Part shown: in pieces, positions 10,333 through 58,000 of the stretch
How the letters are laid out: the number at the start of each line of letters is the position of its first letter
Position numbering within the stretch: the stretch's first letter is position 1
From: an uncultured Clostridia bacterium
GTDB lineage: Bacteria; Bacillota; Clostridia; Oscillospirales; Acutalibacteraceae
DNA length: 60,093 nucleotides
Assembly (NCBI GenBank): GCA_944384815.1
Contig: CALWUW010000031.1
Span: 1 to 60,093 of the forward strand
Direction: 5' to 3'
Notes under the pieces: generated by a model
Database searches by the model: none
What the model was told of the DNA's origin: nothing
Seen by the model: only the letters and a program-made list of their open reading frames with translations
Program-made: the position numbers and the translations under genes

Positions 10333-10521
10333 ATGGAAATGAAAATGAAGATTTATCATTGCACCGATCCAAAAGAAAACCCTCTTCCGGGCTGGATGCG
10401 GGTATTCCCCAAAAAGCCGGAAAAGCCGCAGGTTTCTTTGCCTCAGGATCCTGTGCAGCAGTTTAAGGAGCATCCGGAGCTGTTTTTCCCTGAATTCATG
10501 AAAAACATCCAGCGGTTCTGA
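10333..10521 (+). CDS. Small conserved-looking protein of unknown function (62 residues)
   Basis: A 62-residue polar protein starting at ATG 10333 with a strong GGAGGTGAG site. It has a basic, methionine-rich N terminus (MEMKMKIYHC), a central Pro/Lys segment (FPKKPEKPQVSLPQDP) and an aromatic C terminus (PELFFPEFMKNIQRF). There is no membrane segment and no known domain that I recognise. It lies alone between two minus-strand genes, the 3' end facing ktrA. A TACACT box at 10309-10314 is too close to the ribosome site to be a convincing SigA promoter with a long leader. The good ribosome site and protein-like composition support it as real. Confidence 0.6.
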   Translation: MEMKMKIYHCTDPKENPLPGWMRVFPKKPEKPQVSLPQDPVQQFKEHPELFFPEFMKNIQRF

Positions 10522-10538
10522 AAAAAGGTAAAACAGAT

Positions 10539-11183
10539 TCAGCGGATCAGCTTCTCAACATTTTCGTTTTTCCCCATTACAATCAGACTTTCGCTTTCTT
10601 TAAAAATATATTCGGCAGAGGGGAGCGGGTGCACGACGCCATGCTCCTTAGTAGCTAAAATACTGATATTGTACTTGGTCCGCACAGCCAGCTGCAGAAT
10701 GCTTTTGCCGATCCAGCCTTTGGGGACGGAAATTTCATAGATGGAGTAGTCCGGGGTCAGCTCAATATAATCAAAAATGTGATCCGCACTGCAGGTAACA
10801 GCTAACCGTTCGGCGGTTTCCTGCTCCGGATAAATCACCCGATCCGCTCCGTTGCGGAGAAGAAATTTGGCGTGCACATCCCGGCTGGCGCGGGAGATCA
10901 CGACTTTGGCCCCAAGTTCCTTTAACAGGGAAGTGGTTTCCAGGGAATTTTGAAAATCGTCCCCTATGGCTACGATGCATACGTCGAAATCCGGAATTCC
11001 CAGAGAGTTCAGAAACACTTCGTTGGTGGCGTCTCCGATCTGGATATTTCCGATATAGGGCAGAGCTTCTTCCGCTCTGGATTCCTGGGAATCCACCGCC
11101 AGAACCTCATTGCCCCGTTCCAGTAATTTGCGGGCAATATGCCGGCCAAACCGGCCCAGTCCGATAATAAGAATGCTTTTCAT
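10539..11183 (-). CDS. ktrA: RCK-domain regulatory subunit of a Ktr-type potassium uptake system
   Basis: A 214-residue cytoplasmic regulator of K+ uptake. The RCK_N Rossmann domain starts with IIGLGRFGRHIAR (GxGxxG for NAD(H)/ATP) and includes the acidic AVDSQ at the end of strand 2 and VAIGDDFQNSL; residues about 135-214 form the RCK_C ligand domain, which in KtrA binds c-di-AMP. The single RCK unit and its length match KtrA rather than the double-unit TrkA at 47942. Start 11183 has AGGAGG. No ktrB membrane gene is adjacent, so the partner is either encoded elsewhere or is the TrkH-type protein at 46487. A good minus-strand promoter sits at 11281-11309. Confidence 0.9.
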   Translation of the reverse strand: MKSILIIGLGRFGRHIARKLLERGNEVLAVDSQESRAEEALPYIGNIQIGDATNEVFLNSLGIPDFDVCIVAIGDDFQNSLETTSLLKELGAKVVISRASRDVHAKFLLRNGADRVIYPEQETAERLAVTCSADHIFDYIELTPDYSIYEISVPKGWIGKSILQLAVRTKYNISILATKEHGVVHPLPSAEYIFKESESLIVMGKNENVEKLIR

Positions 11184-11280
11184 AGTATTTCCTCCTGTGA
11201 GTGGTAGGCATTTGGTAGGCGTTTAGTAGAAATTCCCGCCTTAAAAGCTGCGGCAGGATGGTTTTGAAACTTATAATTCT

Positions 11281-11309
11281 AGTATGACATGGGAAAAAGA
11301 TTCTGTCAA
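11281..11309 (-). promoter_or_regulatory. Promoter of ktrA
   Basis: On the minus strand: TTGACA (11309-11304), 17-base spacer, CATACT (11286-11281). It leaves a leader of about 90 bases before ktrA, in which no known riboswitch was recognised. Confidence 0.65.
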
Positions 11310-11378
11310 TTCCGCATTTTCTTTTTGCATCAAAAGTTCTTGCGCAGCGTATTTTCCCAAAATAAATTCTGTAAAGCA

Positions 11379-11425
11379 CAGAGTAAAGGCTCCTTTCTAT
11401 GGGAAGGGAGCTTTTACTCTGTTTT
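11379..11425 (+). terminator. Orphan terminator-like hairpin upstream of the hrcA promoter
   Basis: Nearly perfect arms (CAGAGTAAAGGCTCC at 11379-11393 and the matching 11407-11421) followed by TTTTCC on the plus strand. No plus-strand gene precedes it within about 850 bases. It may insulate hrcA or end an unannotated small RNA. This site, the ktrA promoter, the hrcA promoter and CIRCE are all that I see between 11184 and 11597. Confidence 0.55.
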
Positions 11426-11511
11426 CCATGTGAAAAAGCGGTTCAGAGGGAAGTCTTCACGAAGAAAGAAGAAAAAATTCCCGATTTCATAATTAGTTTA
11501 CAAATAGGCGA

Positions 11512-11540
11512 TTGACAAATCTCCGGAAGGGTGGTACATT
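11512..11540 (+). promoter_or_regulatory. SigA promoter of the hrcA operon
   Basis: TTGACA (11512-11517), 17-base spacer, TACATT (11535-11540), directly before the CIRCE operator. Confidence 0.8.
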
Positions 11541-11549
11541 ATACTTAAG

Positions 11550-11576
11550 TTAGCACTCTAAAACATCGAGTGCTAA
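11550..11576 (+). promoter_or_regulatory. CIRCE operator (HrcA binding site)
   Basis: TTAGCACTC (11550-11558), nine-base spacer, GAGTGCTAA (11568-11576): an exact match to the CIRCE consensus. It overlaps the expected transcription start, so HrcA bound here would block initiation of hrcA-grpE-dnaK-dnaJ and release it on heat stress. Confidence 0.98.
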
Positions 11577-11597
11577 ACCTAAAAGGAGGGAACCGGA

Positions 11598-12626
11598 GTG
11601 GACTTGAGTATCCGCAAGCAGAAAATTTTAAAGGCTGCGGTGGAACTCTATGTGCAAAGCGGAATGCCTGTGGGATCACGGGCCATCTGTGAAGCTCTGG
11701 ATTTCCCCGTTTCTTCAGCGACAGTTCGCAACGAGCTCAGTGATCTTTCCGAGTTGGGCCTTTTGGAACAGCCTCACACGTCTGCCGGTCGGCTTCCGTC
11801 GGCACGAGGGTATCGCTTTTACGTGGATCATCTGATGAAAAAGCGGCTCCTCAGCGGGGAAGAACGCCGGGTTATCGATAGTTTGCTGCTTTCCAGCGCC
11901 TATGACCCGGAAAAGCTTCTCACCAGCGTTTCCAAAGCTTTGGCGGCGTTGACCCGCTGTGCAGCGGTGTCCACCACGCCGGGAGGGAACGCGGCTGTGA
12001 TCCGGGCGGTGCAGTTTGTGCAGACCAGCCGCAGGACGGCCATGGTGGTGCTGATCTCCTCCGCCGGAACCATGAAGACCCGGGTGTTCCATTGTGATTT
12101 TGATATCACACCGGAGATCCTGCGGGTGTTCTTCCGAACGCTGAACGAAAAGCTGGTAGGGCGGGTGCTGGCAGATATTACGCCGGCGCTGATCCAGGGG
12201 CTGGCGGCTTCTTTAGGCGAGATGGCTATTTTGATGAGTTCGGCGCTGATGGCAGTGCTGGATGTGGCCCGGGAATCCGCAGAAGCGGATGTGTGCCTGA
12301 TGGGAGAAAGCAATTTATTGTTTTGCCCGGAGTATGAAGGATCCGGCGTTCGCAGAATCTTGGATTTCCTTTCTCGGCCGGAGGAACTTACAAGGCTTCT
12401 TTTGGAAGGAACAGGAACCAGAGTGCTGATCGGACGGGAGTCCCGGAGGCCGGAATTGTATGCTTCCAGCGTGGTCATCTCCCGATATGCCATTGCCGGG
12501 CGGGACGCAGGCGCCATTGCGGTGATCGGCCCCATACGGCAGGATTACGGCCGGGTGATCGCCGGGATCGAGTATTTGGCAGGTTCGGTGGGTACAATGC
12601 TTACAGAGCTTTTGGATGCAGAATAG
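11598..12626 (+). CDS. hrcA: Heat-inducible transcription repressor HrcA
   Basis: A 342-residue repressor of class I heat-shock genes, binding the CIRCE site 22 bases upstream and needing GroEL for activity. The N-terminal winged-helix is visible (QKILKAAVELYVQSGMPVGS, then SSATVRNELSDLSELGLLE and the wing HTSAGRLPSARGYRFYVD); the GAF-like C-terminal part ends with IAVIGPIRQDYGRVIAGIEY, the usual family ending. The start is GTG at 11598 with AAGGAGGG. It leads the operon, so it represses itself. Confidence 0.97.
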   Translation: MDLSIRKQKILKAAVELYVQSGMPVGSRAICEALDFPVSSATVRNELSDLSELGLLEQPHTSAGRLPSARGYRFYVDHLMKKRLLSGEERRVIDSLLLSSAYDPEKLLTSVSKALAALTRCAAVSTTPGGNAAVIRAVQFVQTSRRTAMVVLISSAGTMKTRVFHCDFDITPEILRVFFRTLNEKLVGRVLADITPALIQGLAASLGEMAILMSSALMAVLDVARESAEADVCLMGESNLLFCPEYEGSGVRRILDFLSRPEELTRLLLEGTGTRVLIGRESRRPELYASSVVISRYAIAGRDAGAIAVIGPIRQDYGRVIAGIEYLAGSVGTMLTELLDAE

Positions 12627-20460: not shown

Positions 20461-20492
20461 AAAAACCTTCCGGATTTCCGGAAGGTTTTTTA
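20461..20492. terminator. Bidirectional terminator between nitroreductase and purF-like genes
   Basis: AAAAACCTTCCGG (20461-20473) and CCGGAAGGTTTTT (20478-20490), four-base loop, T-rich on both sides. Confidence 0.92.
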
Positions 20493-20519: not shown

Positions 20520-21926
20520 TTATTCTTTTCCGTCCCAGCAATAAGTGCAAAGCTTGCAGCGGTCAATCCCTACGGATTGGATCATATCGTCCAGGCGGTG
20601 ATATTGCAGGGAAGTGAAATTCAGCTTCTTTCCGATATTTTGAACCATGTCCTGATACTCCTGGCATTCAGGATCCGTGTATTTCTGCAGATCGGCTTTG
20701 GAAAGATCCCCTTCCATTTCCAAAATCACCCGGCGGGTAATCAGGTCCATCTCCGAAGTGGAACGGGAGAAGTTCAGATATTTACAGCCATACACCAGCG
20801 GCGGGCAAGCGGGACGCACGTGCACTTCCCGGGCTCCGCTCTGGTAAAGGAATTCGGTGGTTTCCCGGAGCTGCGTCCCCCGGACGATGGAATCGTCGAT
20901 CAGAAGGAGACTTTGATTTTGGATCAGGTCATGCACAGGGATTAGCTTCATTTTGGCAATCAGATTCCGTTTGCTCTGAATAGTAGGCATAAAGGAACGG
21001 GGCCATGTGGGGGTGTACTTAATGAAGGGGCGGGAGAAAGGAATGCCGGAGGTATTGGCGTAGCCGATGGCGTGGGCGGTTCCCGAATCGGGCACACCGG
21101 CTACAATGTCCGGACGTGCGGAATCCCGTTTAGCCAGCAGGGCGCCGCAGTTATATCGCATTTTTTCCACGCTGATGCCTTCATAGGAAGAAGAAGGATA
21201 TCCGTAATACACCCAGAGGAATGTACAGATCTTCATTTCTTTTCCCGGCTGGGACAAAGTCTGCACGCCTTCAGGGGTAATGACCACGATTTCTCCCGGC
21301 CCCAGCTCCCGTTCTTCCGTATAGCCTAAGTTCAGGTAGGCAAAGCTTTCAAAGCAGACGCAGTGGGCGTCCTCTTTTTTTCCGATGGCTACCGGGGTGC
21401 GCCCCAAGCGGTCCCGGGCGGCATAGATCCCTTTGGAGGTGAGAAGAAGGATGGTCATGGAGCCGTCAATGATTTCCTGAGCATAGCGGATGCCTTCGAT
21501 GAGGTTATCCTTCTGATTGATTACGGCAGCCACCAATTCTGTGGCGTTGATGTCTCCTCCGCTCATTTCCAGAAAATGTGTGTTGCCGCTTTTGAAGATC
21601 TCCTTCACAATGGCGTCGGTGTTGTTGATTTTTCCCACGGTGACAATGGCATAGGTGCCATGATGAGACCGGACAATCAAAGGCTGGGGTTCATAGTCGG
21701 AAATACAGCCAATGCCCAGATTTCCTTTCATCTCTCCCACGTCTTTATCAAACTTTGTGCGGAAGGGAGCGTTTTCAATGTTGTGAATGGAACGATCAAA
21801 GCCCTTTTCTGGGTCATACACAGCCATACCGGCTCTGCGGGTCCCTAAATGGGAATGATAATCCGTTCCGAAAAACAGATCGAATACACAATCTTCCTTT
21901 GCTGCTACACCAAAAAATCCACCCAT
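20520..21926 (-). CDS. PurF-like amidophosphoribosyltransferase homologue lacking the catalytic cysteine
   Basis: A 468-residue protein with both PurF domains. The N-terminal Ntn-glutaminase fold is recognisable (DYHSHLGTRRAGM, GNLGIGCISDYEPQP, LTSKGIYAARDRLGRTPV), but it starts MGGFFG where real enzymes have MCGIFG, so the Cys1 nucleophile is Gly. The reading is secure: GGAGG lies 6 bases before the ATG and the codon is GGT. The C-terminal PRPP domain keeps the LLLIDDSIVRGTQ binding loop and the GVPDSGTAHAIGYA block. The C terminus has CKLCTYCWDGKE. Without Cys1 it should not use glutamine, so ammonia-dependent phosphoribosylamine synthesis, another transferase role or regulation are options. 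It is the last of several minus-strand genes after tatD; no other purine gene is near. Confidence 0.88.
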   Translation of the reverse strand: MGGFFGVAAKEDCVFDLFFGTDYHSHLGTRRAGMAVYDPEKGFDRSIHNIENAPFRTKFDKDVGEMKGNLGIGCISDYEPQPLIVRSHHGTYAIVTVGKINNTDAIVKEIFKSGNTHFLEMSGGDINATELVAAVINQKDNLIEGIRYAQEIIDGSMTILLLTSKGIYAARDRLGRTPVAIGKKEDAHCVCFESFAYLNLGYTEERELGPGEIVVITPEGVQTLSQPGKEMKICTFLWVYYGYPSSSYEGISVEKMRYNCGALLAKRDSARPDIVAGVPDSGTAHAIGYANTSGIPFSRPFIKYTPTWPRSFMPTIQSKRNLIAKMKLIPVHDLIQNQSLLLIDDSIVRGTQLRETTEFLYQSGAREVHVRPACPPLVYGCKYLNFSRSTSEMDLITRRVILEMEGDLSKADLQKYTDPECQEYQDMVQNIGKKLNFTSLQYHRLDDMIQSVGIDRCKLCTYCWDGKE

Positions 21927-22014: not shown

Positions 22015-22788
22015 TCAGTTTACTGAAAAAAGTTTGCAGGCGTTTTCTTTTCCTGCCCGGAGAACTTCTTGCACGGAAATTCCCTTGCATTCGGCAATTT
22101 TGGCTGCCGAATAGACGATCATGGAAGAATCGCAGCGTTTTCCCCGGTAAGGGACCGGCGCCATGTAAGGGCAATCGGTTTCGTTTAAAAGCCGATCTAA
22201 GGGGACCGCTTTGGCCACCTCCAGGGGAACGCGGGCGTTTTTGAAGGTTACGGCGCCTCCAAGGCCAATGTACAGCCCCAGCCACACCACTTCCTCCATC
22301 ATTTCCACGCTGCCGCTGAAGCAGTGCACCACGCCTTTGGGCCGGTAGGAACGAAGGATCTCCAGCATATCCCCGTGGGCTTCCCTGTCATGGAGGATCA
22401 CCGGCAAATCATATTCCCGGGCTATCCGGAGCTGTGCTTCCAGAAACTGCTTCTGTACTGGCCGGGGAGCATTCTCCTTCCAGTAATAATCCAGGCCGAT
22501 CTCTCCCAGAGCTACGATCTTAGGCTGGGAAAGAAGGGCATGCAGCTGCGTTTCCCAATCCTGGGGCGCTTCCCCGACACTTTCAGGGTGAAGACCTGCG
22601 GCGGCATAGAAAAAAGGATATGTCTCCGCAAGCTTCAGGGAAAAGCGGGAGCTTTCCAGATCGGAGCCGCAGTTTATCACTCGAAAAACATCTTTCCGGG
22701 GAAGATCCCGGAGAACTTCTTCCCGATCGCCGTCAAAAGACTGGCTGTCGTAGTGGGCGTGGGAATCGAAAATATCCTGTATAGACAT
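22015..22788 (-). CDS. tatD: TatD family metal-dependent hydrolase/deoxyribonuclease
   Basis: A 257-residue TIM-barrel hydrolase with two-metal centre. Metal ligands are seen as DSHAHYD near the N terminus, ALGEIGLDYYW (Glu), VILHDREAHGD (His), VVHCFSGS (His) and LNETDCPYMAP (Asp). Members act as 3'-5' DNA exonucleases and on D-aminoacyl ends; the exact role here is open. It lies downstream of metG on the same strand, an arrangement found in many Firmicutes, here with a nucleotidyltransferase gene between. ATG 22788 has AAAGGAC. Confidence 0.93.
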   Translation of the reverse strand: MSIQDIFDSHAHYDSQSFDGDREEVLRDLPRKDVFRVINCGSDLESSRFSLKLAETYPFFYAAAGLHPESVGEAPQDWETQLHALLSQPKIVALGEIGLDYYWKENAPRPVQKQFLEAQLRIAREYDLPVILHDREAHGDMLEILRSYRPKGVVHCFSGSVEMMEEVVWLGLYIGLGGAVTFKNARVPLEVAKAVPLDRLLNETDCPYMAPVPYRGKRCDSSMIVYSAAKIAECKGISVQEVLRAGKENACKLFSVN

Positions 22789-57652: not shown

Positions 57653-57996
57653 GTGAGCAGTTCGAACGGCTGCGGGCGAAGCCCTAAAGGGCTCGCCTGA
57701 GGAAAGTCCGAGCTCCAAAGGGCAGGATAGCGGCTAACGGCCGCCGGGGGCGACCCTAGGGAGAGTGCAACAGAGATATACCGCCGCGTTAAGCGGTAAG
57801 GGTGGAAAGGCGAGGTAAGAGCTCACCAGCCGGCAGGAGACTGTCCGGCTCTGTAAACCCTATCCGGAGCAACACCGTGGAGGGGCATATGCGCCGGCCC
57901 GGCGCGTCCTGTGGAGGTGGCATTGAGCCGTTGCGGCAACGCACGGCCAAGATAGATGGTCGTTCAAGACAGAACTCGGCTTATAGAACTGGTCAC
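57653..57996 (+). ncRNA. rnpB: RNase P RNA (catalytic component of RNase P)
   Basis: The 344-base RNA removes 5' leaders from tRNA precursors. Universal core segments are present: GAGGAAAGTCCGAGCTCC near 57698-57717, the AGAGTGCAACAGAGATATACCG region near 57763 and ACAGAACTCGGCTTAT near 57969-57984. The ends pair as helix P1 (GTGAGCAGTTC at 57653-57663 with GAACTGGTCAC at 57986-57996). It follows a SigA promoter at the right distance and is closed by a terminator at 58001. The core resembles the common ancestral (type A) form, although the class was not modelled. Confidence 0.97.
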
Positions 57997-58000
57997 ATTT

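Follow-up and report, generated by a model that had tools for sequence, protein, structure and literature searches.

A bacterial family of PurF paralogues without the glutaminase nucleophile, often the only PurF found and predicted to use ammonia

PurF catalyses the step, dependent on glutamine, that commits metabolism to purine synthesis, and it is a textbook ammonia-channelling enzyme, in which a flexible loop of the phosphoribosyltransferase (PRTase) half shuts the active site and helps to build the ammonia channel. We take the canonical protein to be glutamine PRPP amidotransferase (EC 2.4.2.14), as represented by the family TIGR01134 and the structures 1ao0, 1gph and 1ecb. Published passages assign roles to several of its residues: Arg73 and Thr76 touch a glutamine analogue, Tyr74 builds the wall of the ammonia channel together with Ile335 (PMC7953260), and Tyr258 contacts pyrophosphate, alteration of its Arabidopsis counterpart having nearly abolished activity (PMC7056826). 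When Cys1 of E. coli PurF is replaced by Ala or Ser, no glutamine activity is detectable while ammonia is still used (Mei and Zalkin, 1989, as related in a passage of PMC3261824). Passages of the same paper, published in 2011, describe the crenarchaeal PurF', a paralogue without the N-terminal Cys (many carry Ala or Val in its place) that is encoded near purF and other pur genes, each Crenarchaeon having one PurF' and one true PurF, and propose as a hypothesis that PurF' is an ammonia-dependent PRPP aminotransferase (PMC3261824).

The gene considered here lies in a stretch of 60,093 nucleotides from an uncultured Clostridia bacterium, the whole of which is referred to as the window. It occupies 20520..21926 on the minus strand as an intact ORF of 468 aa with an ATG start, and its product, a glutaminase-dead paralogue of PurF, is labelled PurF*. 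As the original prediction had stated, the protein is a full-length PurF homologue that opens with MGGFFG; the start codon and the Gly-Gly at the canonical Cys1 place span 21918..21926 (-), and the first Cys comes no earlier than residue 13. In an NCBIfam scan the TIGR01134 match reaches 189 bits, below the cut-off of 350 bits, and the top score against this model among PurF* confirmed in the family and order samples described below, 198.5 bits (G224), likewise falls short. Despite this difference from canonical PurF, length and overall architecture are alike. The best sequence match among solved structures is B. subtilis PurF 1ao0, over PurF* residues 3-405, and an AlphaFold2 model (pLDDT 84.5, built from 43 aligned sequences) has the PurF fold, an Ntn-type domain joined to a type I PRTase domain: 1ao0_A heads a fold search of the PDB (TM 0.80/0.82, E 4.1e-36), and the first 17 matches are all PurF. 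The low-confidence stretch of the model, residues 303-315, corresponds to the flexible PRTase loop. Beyond the end of the gene, an inverted repeat with flanking A and T runs was spotted by eye at approximately 20461-20492; it sits between PurF* and a convergent nitroreductase-like gene and is probably a terminator shared by both.

The N-terminal, pseudo-glutaminase half of the protein (residues 1-228, boundary approximate; 21243..21926, minus strand) matches Pfam GATase_7 with 31.9 bits. To place its residues, 135 distinct PurF* sequences were compared, in E. coli mature numbering, with 31 canonical PurF sequences comprising that of E. coli and canonical copies from the fetched loci; a first version of the comparison held 112 PurF* sequences. 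PurF* starts were trimmed with a Gly/Ser/Ala motif, by which only L182, a fragment without a start, and L208, which begins MGGFFG and was missed by the filter, were lost, so that no Cys start is hidden; one canonical frame (L169) was excluded as a wrong frame. All 31 canonical proteins carry Cys at position 1 and none of the 135 PurF* sequences does, 126 having Gly and nine Ser, in agreement with the earlier statement that the glutaminase nucleophile is absent. Cys-containing stretches found ahead of the start in three genomes (an in-frame CGGFV just before an LGGFFG start in G271 and G289, a Cys codon in G215) are taken as untranslated.

The loss extends well past the nucleophile. Arg26 is replaced by Leu in 135 of 135 sequences and Gln28 by Thr in 130, the others having Ile, Lys or Met, while the positions of Arg73, Tyr74 and Thr76 fall in an alignment gap throughout (135/135), which places the deletion of the glutamine loop (RY.T, E. 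coli 73-76) at about residue 75, approximately 21699..21704 (-). At the position of Asn101 every sequence has Val, Ile or Thr, and the Asp127 column, where an adjacent gap makes the alignment less certain, is mostly Gly, with no Asp among its four commonest residues (129/135). Of the glutamine-binding set, Arg73, Thr76 and Asn101 are absent throughout, and Asp127 appears to be lost in most. Gly102, kept in 117 of 135, is the only glutaminase position examined that PurF* largely preserves. The suggestion that other residues of this half had been conserved from the glutaminase does not stand, as the motifs then cited prove to be features of the PurF* family itself: DYHSHLGTRR occupies the place of QHRGQ in canonical PurF, and DYHSHLGT, IHNIEN..FR.KF and IGCISD recur as PurF*-specific motifs. 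From its sequence this half is probably a conserved non-hydrolysing domain with a structural or regulatory part to play, and a scaffold or a site of nucleotide feedback would be a guess at that part.

The PRTase half presents a different picture. The PRPP loop, DDSIVRGT (residues 344-351, 20874..20897, minus strand), retains its invariant positions in all 135 sequences (D, D, S, R and T, E. coli 366, 367, 368, 371 and 373), as do Tyr258, Asp303 and Lys326, with Arg332 present in 134; the PRPP-binding site and the pyrophosphate loop of canonical PurF are kept. Four cysteines, C234, C381, C460 and C463, sit at what we take to be the Fe-S ligand places of B. subtilis PurF, the last two forming the motif CTYC at 20538..20549 (-) and presumably furnishing two of the four ligands of a [4Fe-4S] cluster; among 112 PurF* sequences they are kept in 112, 112, 111 and 111, respectively. 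The flexible loop, KYTPTWPRSFMP (residues 303-314, 20985..21020, minus strand), replaces the canonical K-N-x-Y-x-x-R-[TS]-F-I. Within it K303 (135/135), R310 (134/135) and F312 (135/135) are constant, T307 stands at the place of canonical Tyr329 in 134 of 135, and the loop is one residue longer than its canonical counterpart.

A search for related loci returned at least 589, of which the best 80 have 75-87% identity to the PurF* of the window. The search patterns left the N-terminus untouched, and all of these best 80 carry Gly or Ser, never Cys, after the start, which makes a sequencing error very unlikely. A plasmid collection contains more remote relatives: Peptoclostridium acidaminophilum carries one of 60% identity, and records of Phocaeicola, Parabacteroides and Bacteroides carry others of 49-50%. 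In a tree, which had been called for at the outset and was built by a quick method, PurF* forms a clade apart from canonical PurF (SH-aLRT 100), the two being separated by long branches with a root that is not settled. The PurF* of operon type form one group (99), and that of G251, which lies in an operon and is the sole PurF of its genome, joins the side of the window's protein (85).

The distribution of PurF* among genomes bears most directly on its function. When 117 genomes of the same order, each at least 90% complete, were searched with TIGR01134, 85 had a canonical PurF, 24 had a sub-cut-off match only, and eight had neither at E 1e-35. Each of the 24 sub-cut-off matches was confirmed as PurF*, with 56-71% identity to the protein of the window, and no second PurF match was found in these genomes at E 1e-10. 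A match of PurF* type, assigned by score and place and in most cases without confirmation by a second search, is also held by 33 of the 85 genomes with canonical PurF. Among 60 genomes of the window's own family PurF* occurs in 24, G212 having no more than a fragment; a canonical PurF that passes the cut-off accompanies it in nine, but not in 14 others or in G212. That a canonical PurF lies hidden under the threshold in such genomes was considered and rejected. In the 14 family genomes a TIGR01134 search at E 1e-3 yielded PurF*, matches restricted to a glutaminase half within other proteins 379-696 aa long, and three weak matches in ORFs of 230-289 aa, with no canonical PurF surfacing, and in the 24 order genomes a search at E 1e-12 found none, the extra matches covering only a GATase half in proteins 603-729 aa long.

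In the order sample purD is present in 23 of the 24 with PurF* alone (22 over the cut-off and a fragment in G360; none in G274), and in the family sample in 13 of 14, with a fragment in G235 and none in G224, a genome that is 72% complete and has PurF* only, with no operon context. Canonical PurF is missing from 24 of 57 order genomes that carry PurF* and from 8 of 60 that do not (p 8e-4), or from 23 of 56 and 5 of 57 when only purD-bearing genomes are counted among those without the canonical enzyme (p 7e-5); since the genomes are related, these p values are a guide only. All genomes with PurF* as sole PurF are multi-contig drafts, and because five of the eight without any PurF match at E 1e-35 carry purD (G268, G275, G316, G352 and G370), drafts do at times lose purF, which limits what sole-PurF status can show; these five represent either incomplete assembly or yet another type of PurF. 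As a separate observation, purD of G285, G324 and G312 lies in frames of 616-625 aa, most others being roughly 420-490 aa, and is possibly a fusion.

In many relatives PurF* also takes the operon slot of canonical PurF. It stands immediately upstream of purM in 20 operons that were read (12 from the family sample and eight from the order sample), with enzyme names assigned at L123 and L124 and extended to the other loci by BLAST. The gene order purE-(purC)-PurF*-purM holds in 12 of the 14 family genomes with PurF* alone. Where the contig permits, purN-purO-purV-purD-purL follow purM in these, together with fhs in several; in G225, where PurF* is split across two contigs, the slot is taken from coordinates alone. 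Among the eight order-sample operons, no purC was seen in G304 and the contig of G349 ends just ahead of PurF*. A ZMP/ZTP riboswitch lies directly before purE in all ten operon loci scanned with Rfam, of the 20 read. Seven further order genomes have PurF* and purD within about 6 kb on one contig, an arrangement that in total describes 15 of the 24 order genomes with PurF* alone, the two genes lying on separate contigs in G363, G306, G285, G288, G324, G312, G269 and G360.

Two further enzymes are encoded in pur operons such as that of L123 (there at 10408-12321): an AICAR formyltransferase of one domain (NF005492) and a PurO-like IMP cyclohydrolase, which with 57 of 150 bits stays under the archaeal PurO cut-offs. 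A link of PurF* to PurO and PurV in place of PurH was considered and set aside as not specific, PurO (PF07826) being found in 44 of 60 family genomes, many of them without PurF*.

Taken together, the residues and the genome context suggest, with a probability of roughly 0.7, that PurF* is a PRPP aminotransferase that uses ammonia and is able to replace PurF. It would convert PRPP and ammonia to 5-phosphoribosylamine without hydrolysing glutamine, and in a large set of genomes of the same order it alone would start purine synthesis, having replaced the canonical enzyme. This is the simplest reading because purD is present and no other PurF has been found, and of the three functions first suggested free ammonia fits best, since in many genomes the protein lies beside purine genes and no other PurF was found. 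Catalytic activity, ammonia as donor and the purpose of the N-terminal half are matters that we infer, and the altered flexible loop, with Thr for Tyr329 and an extra residue, weighs against the reading. Judged by residues, PurF* would be expected to resemble the E. coli Cys1 mutants known from passages of PMC3261824, with glutamine use abolished and ammonia use retained, and it resembles a naturally occurring counterpart that has diverged much further: beyond the change at Cys1 seen in the laboratory point mutants, its glutamine loop is gone, and with it Tyr74 of the channel. Like crenarchaeal PurF' as described in those passages, it is a paralogue of PurF that lacks the N-terminal Cys and is encoded close to pur genes in many genomes, whereas by the same description it is set apart in having Gly or Ser, in being bacterial and in often being the only PurF found. 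A search of the open-licence literature found no paper on a bacterial PurF family of this kind, and a bacterial family serving as sole PurF is what is new relative to the PurF' hypothesis.

An alternative, rather unlikely on present data, is that a separate ammonia-releasing protein docks on the pseudo-glutaminase half and feeds the synthesis of phosphoribosylamine by PurF*. Such a partner might account for the fact that this half, with its own motifs, lags only slightly behind the rest in conservation: across 400 sampled pairs mean pairwise identity is 67% in the N-terminal half and 70% in the remainder, compared with 0.54 and 0.57 in the canonical set. Nitrogen-handling neighbours are also to be found. 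The gene directly after PurF* is pepT in two Bacteroidota records, in both of which gcvT is next, and in one from Peptoclostridium (L092 12001-14787; L093 10001-12684; L091 8001-10800), and in the phylum-level relatives L088-L090 the neighbour of PurF* belongs to a single gene cluster, its L088 member being the C-terminal portion of a carB-like gene for the large subunit of carbamoyl-phosphate synthase. These neighbours, however, are not common across lineages, and between purE and purL there is no unnamed gene common to three or more clustered loci.

Less probable is a regulatory or structural partnership in which PurF* joins canonical PurF in a mixed tetramer. Proximity of the two genes speaks for it, a canonical PurF lying inside the fetched flank at 10 of the best 80 loci, often with purB between, and tandem copies occurring in G201 and, by coordinates, in 7 of the 33 order genomes with both. 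A gene of one cluster, a representative of which is purB, stands directly upstream of PurF* in 16 of the best 80 loci, and these flanks link PurF* to purine genes in some of the genomes that carry it as a second copy. Regulation of a true PurF, as originally envisaged, nevertheless fails as a general function, for canonical PurF was not found in 24 of the 57 order genomes with a PurF*-type match.

Phosphoribosylamine is the known substrate of PurD, and this makes it slightly harder still to credit the remaining functional alternative, namely that PurF* is a phosphoribosyltransferase acting on another acceptor. New near-invariant residues in or near the PRTase site (Thr307, Trp308, His285 and Cys374, each in 110-112 of 112 sequences) would be consistent with a changed acceptor, but such a function is unlikely where PurF* occupies the place of purF in a purE-(purC)-purM-purN-purD operon and no other PurF is found. 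A decaying duplicate or a sequence error, conceivable when a single sequence with one missing Cys was first noticed, can be discarded in view of 135 concordant homologues and of purifying selection, to which both the near-equal identity of the two halves and low dN/dS point (in comparisons with its two closest relatives in the alignment, L006 and L007, the ratio spans 0.036-0.049 over the N-terminal half and 0.058-0.084 over the remainder, rough values at high dS; both halves were computable for three of eight pairs, the others being dS-saturated in one or both), and the early view that the gene is not decaying is thereby upheld.

The genome from which the window derives (G000) is among those with both proteins. 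A canonical PurF, the search for which had been proposed at the outset, is present on contig C20 (494 bits, with EECGVFG behind a short leader), although not within a pur operon, where that proposal had placed it: the operon, on contig C28, reads purE-purM-purN-purO-purV-purD and has no purF. PurF* lies away from both. Its upstream neighbour on the same strand is tatD (22015..22788, minus strand; TIGR00010, 253 bits), a protein with a nucleotidyltransferase domain (PF01909; 22843-23631, minus strand) is encoded between tatD and metG, and no pur genes were found beside PurF* in the stretch read. The Rfam scan returned a class A RNase P RNA in the window (57654-57999, plus strand) and no ZTP riboswitch there or at either of the G000 and G306 pur operons. 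The initial placement of PurF* outside a purine operon is accordingly correct in the case of the window and incorrect as a statement on the family, many relatives having it in the purF slot.

In five genomes (G306, G285, G288, G324 and G312) a PurF* 65-71% identical to that of the window is the only PurF found; all have purD, and in each PurF* lies outside any pur operon seen. These five are left out of the tree. In G306 and G288 a pur operon without purF is accompanied by a PurF* elsewhere, just as in G000, but no canonical copy was found, and this arrangement is the best argument that the PurF* of the window does the same chemistry. The best reading, which extends the role to this protein by homology, is that in G000 a normal PurF is supplemented by PurF* as a second isozyme that would use ammonia.

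The consequences of these findings begin with annotation. In three public records that were read, PurF* is called amidophosphoribosyltransferase in two and hypothetical in one, and because of current annotation and the family score, genomes that carry it would be taken as glutamine-using or, by the cut-off, as lacking PurF. The genomes in which PurF* stands alone turn what has been a possibility, an ammonia-dependent PurF, into a strong and testable prediction. As a tentative extension, many Clostridia-type bacteria of this order might commit to purine synthesis with free ammonia, with the N-terminal half rebuilt around its DYHSHLGT, IHNIEN..FR.KF and IGCISD motifs into a new domain to sense or deliver ammonium or nucleotides, and species with both enzymes, perhaps including the Bacteroidota, might switch between a glutamine-fed and an ammonia-fed route. 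If the main reading is true, the PurF' hypothesis of 2011 would become directly testable in bacteria, and a natural sole PurF that makes no use of glutamine would mean that the enzyme can do without its ammonia channel, perhaps where the habitat is rich in ammonia.
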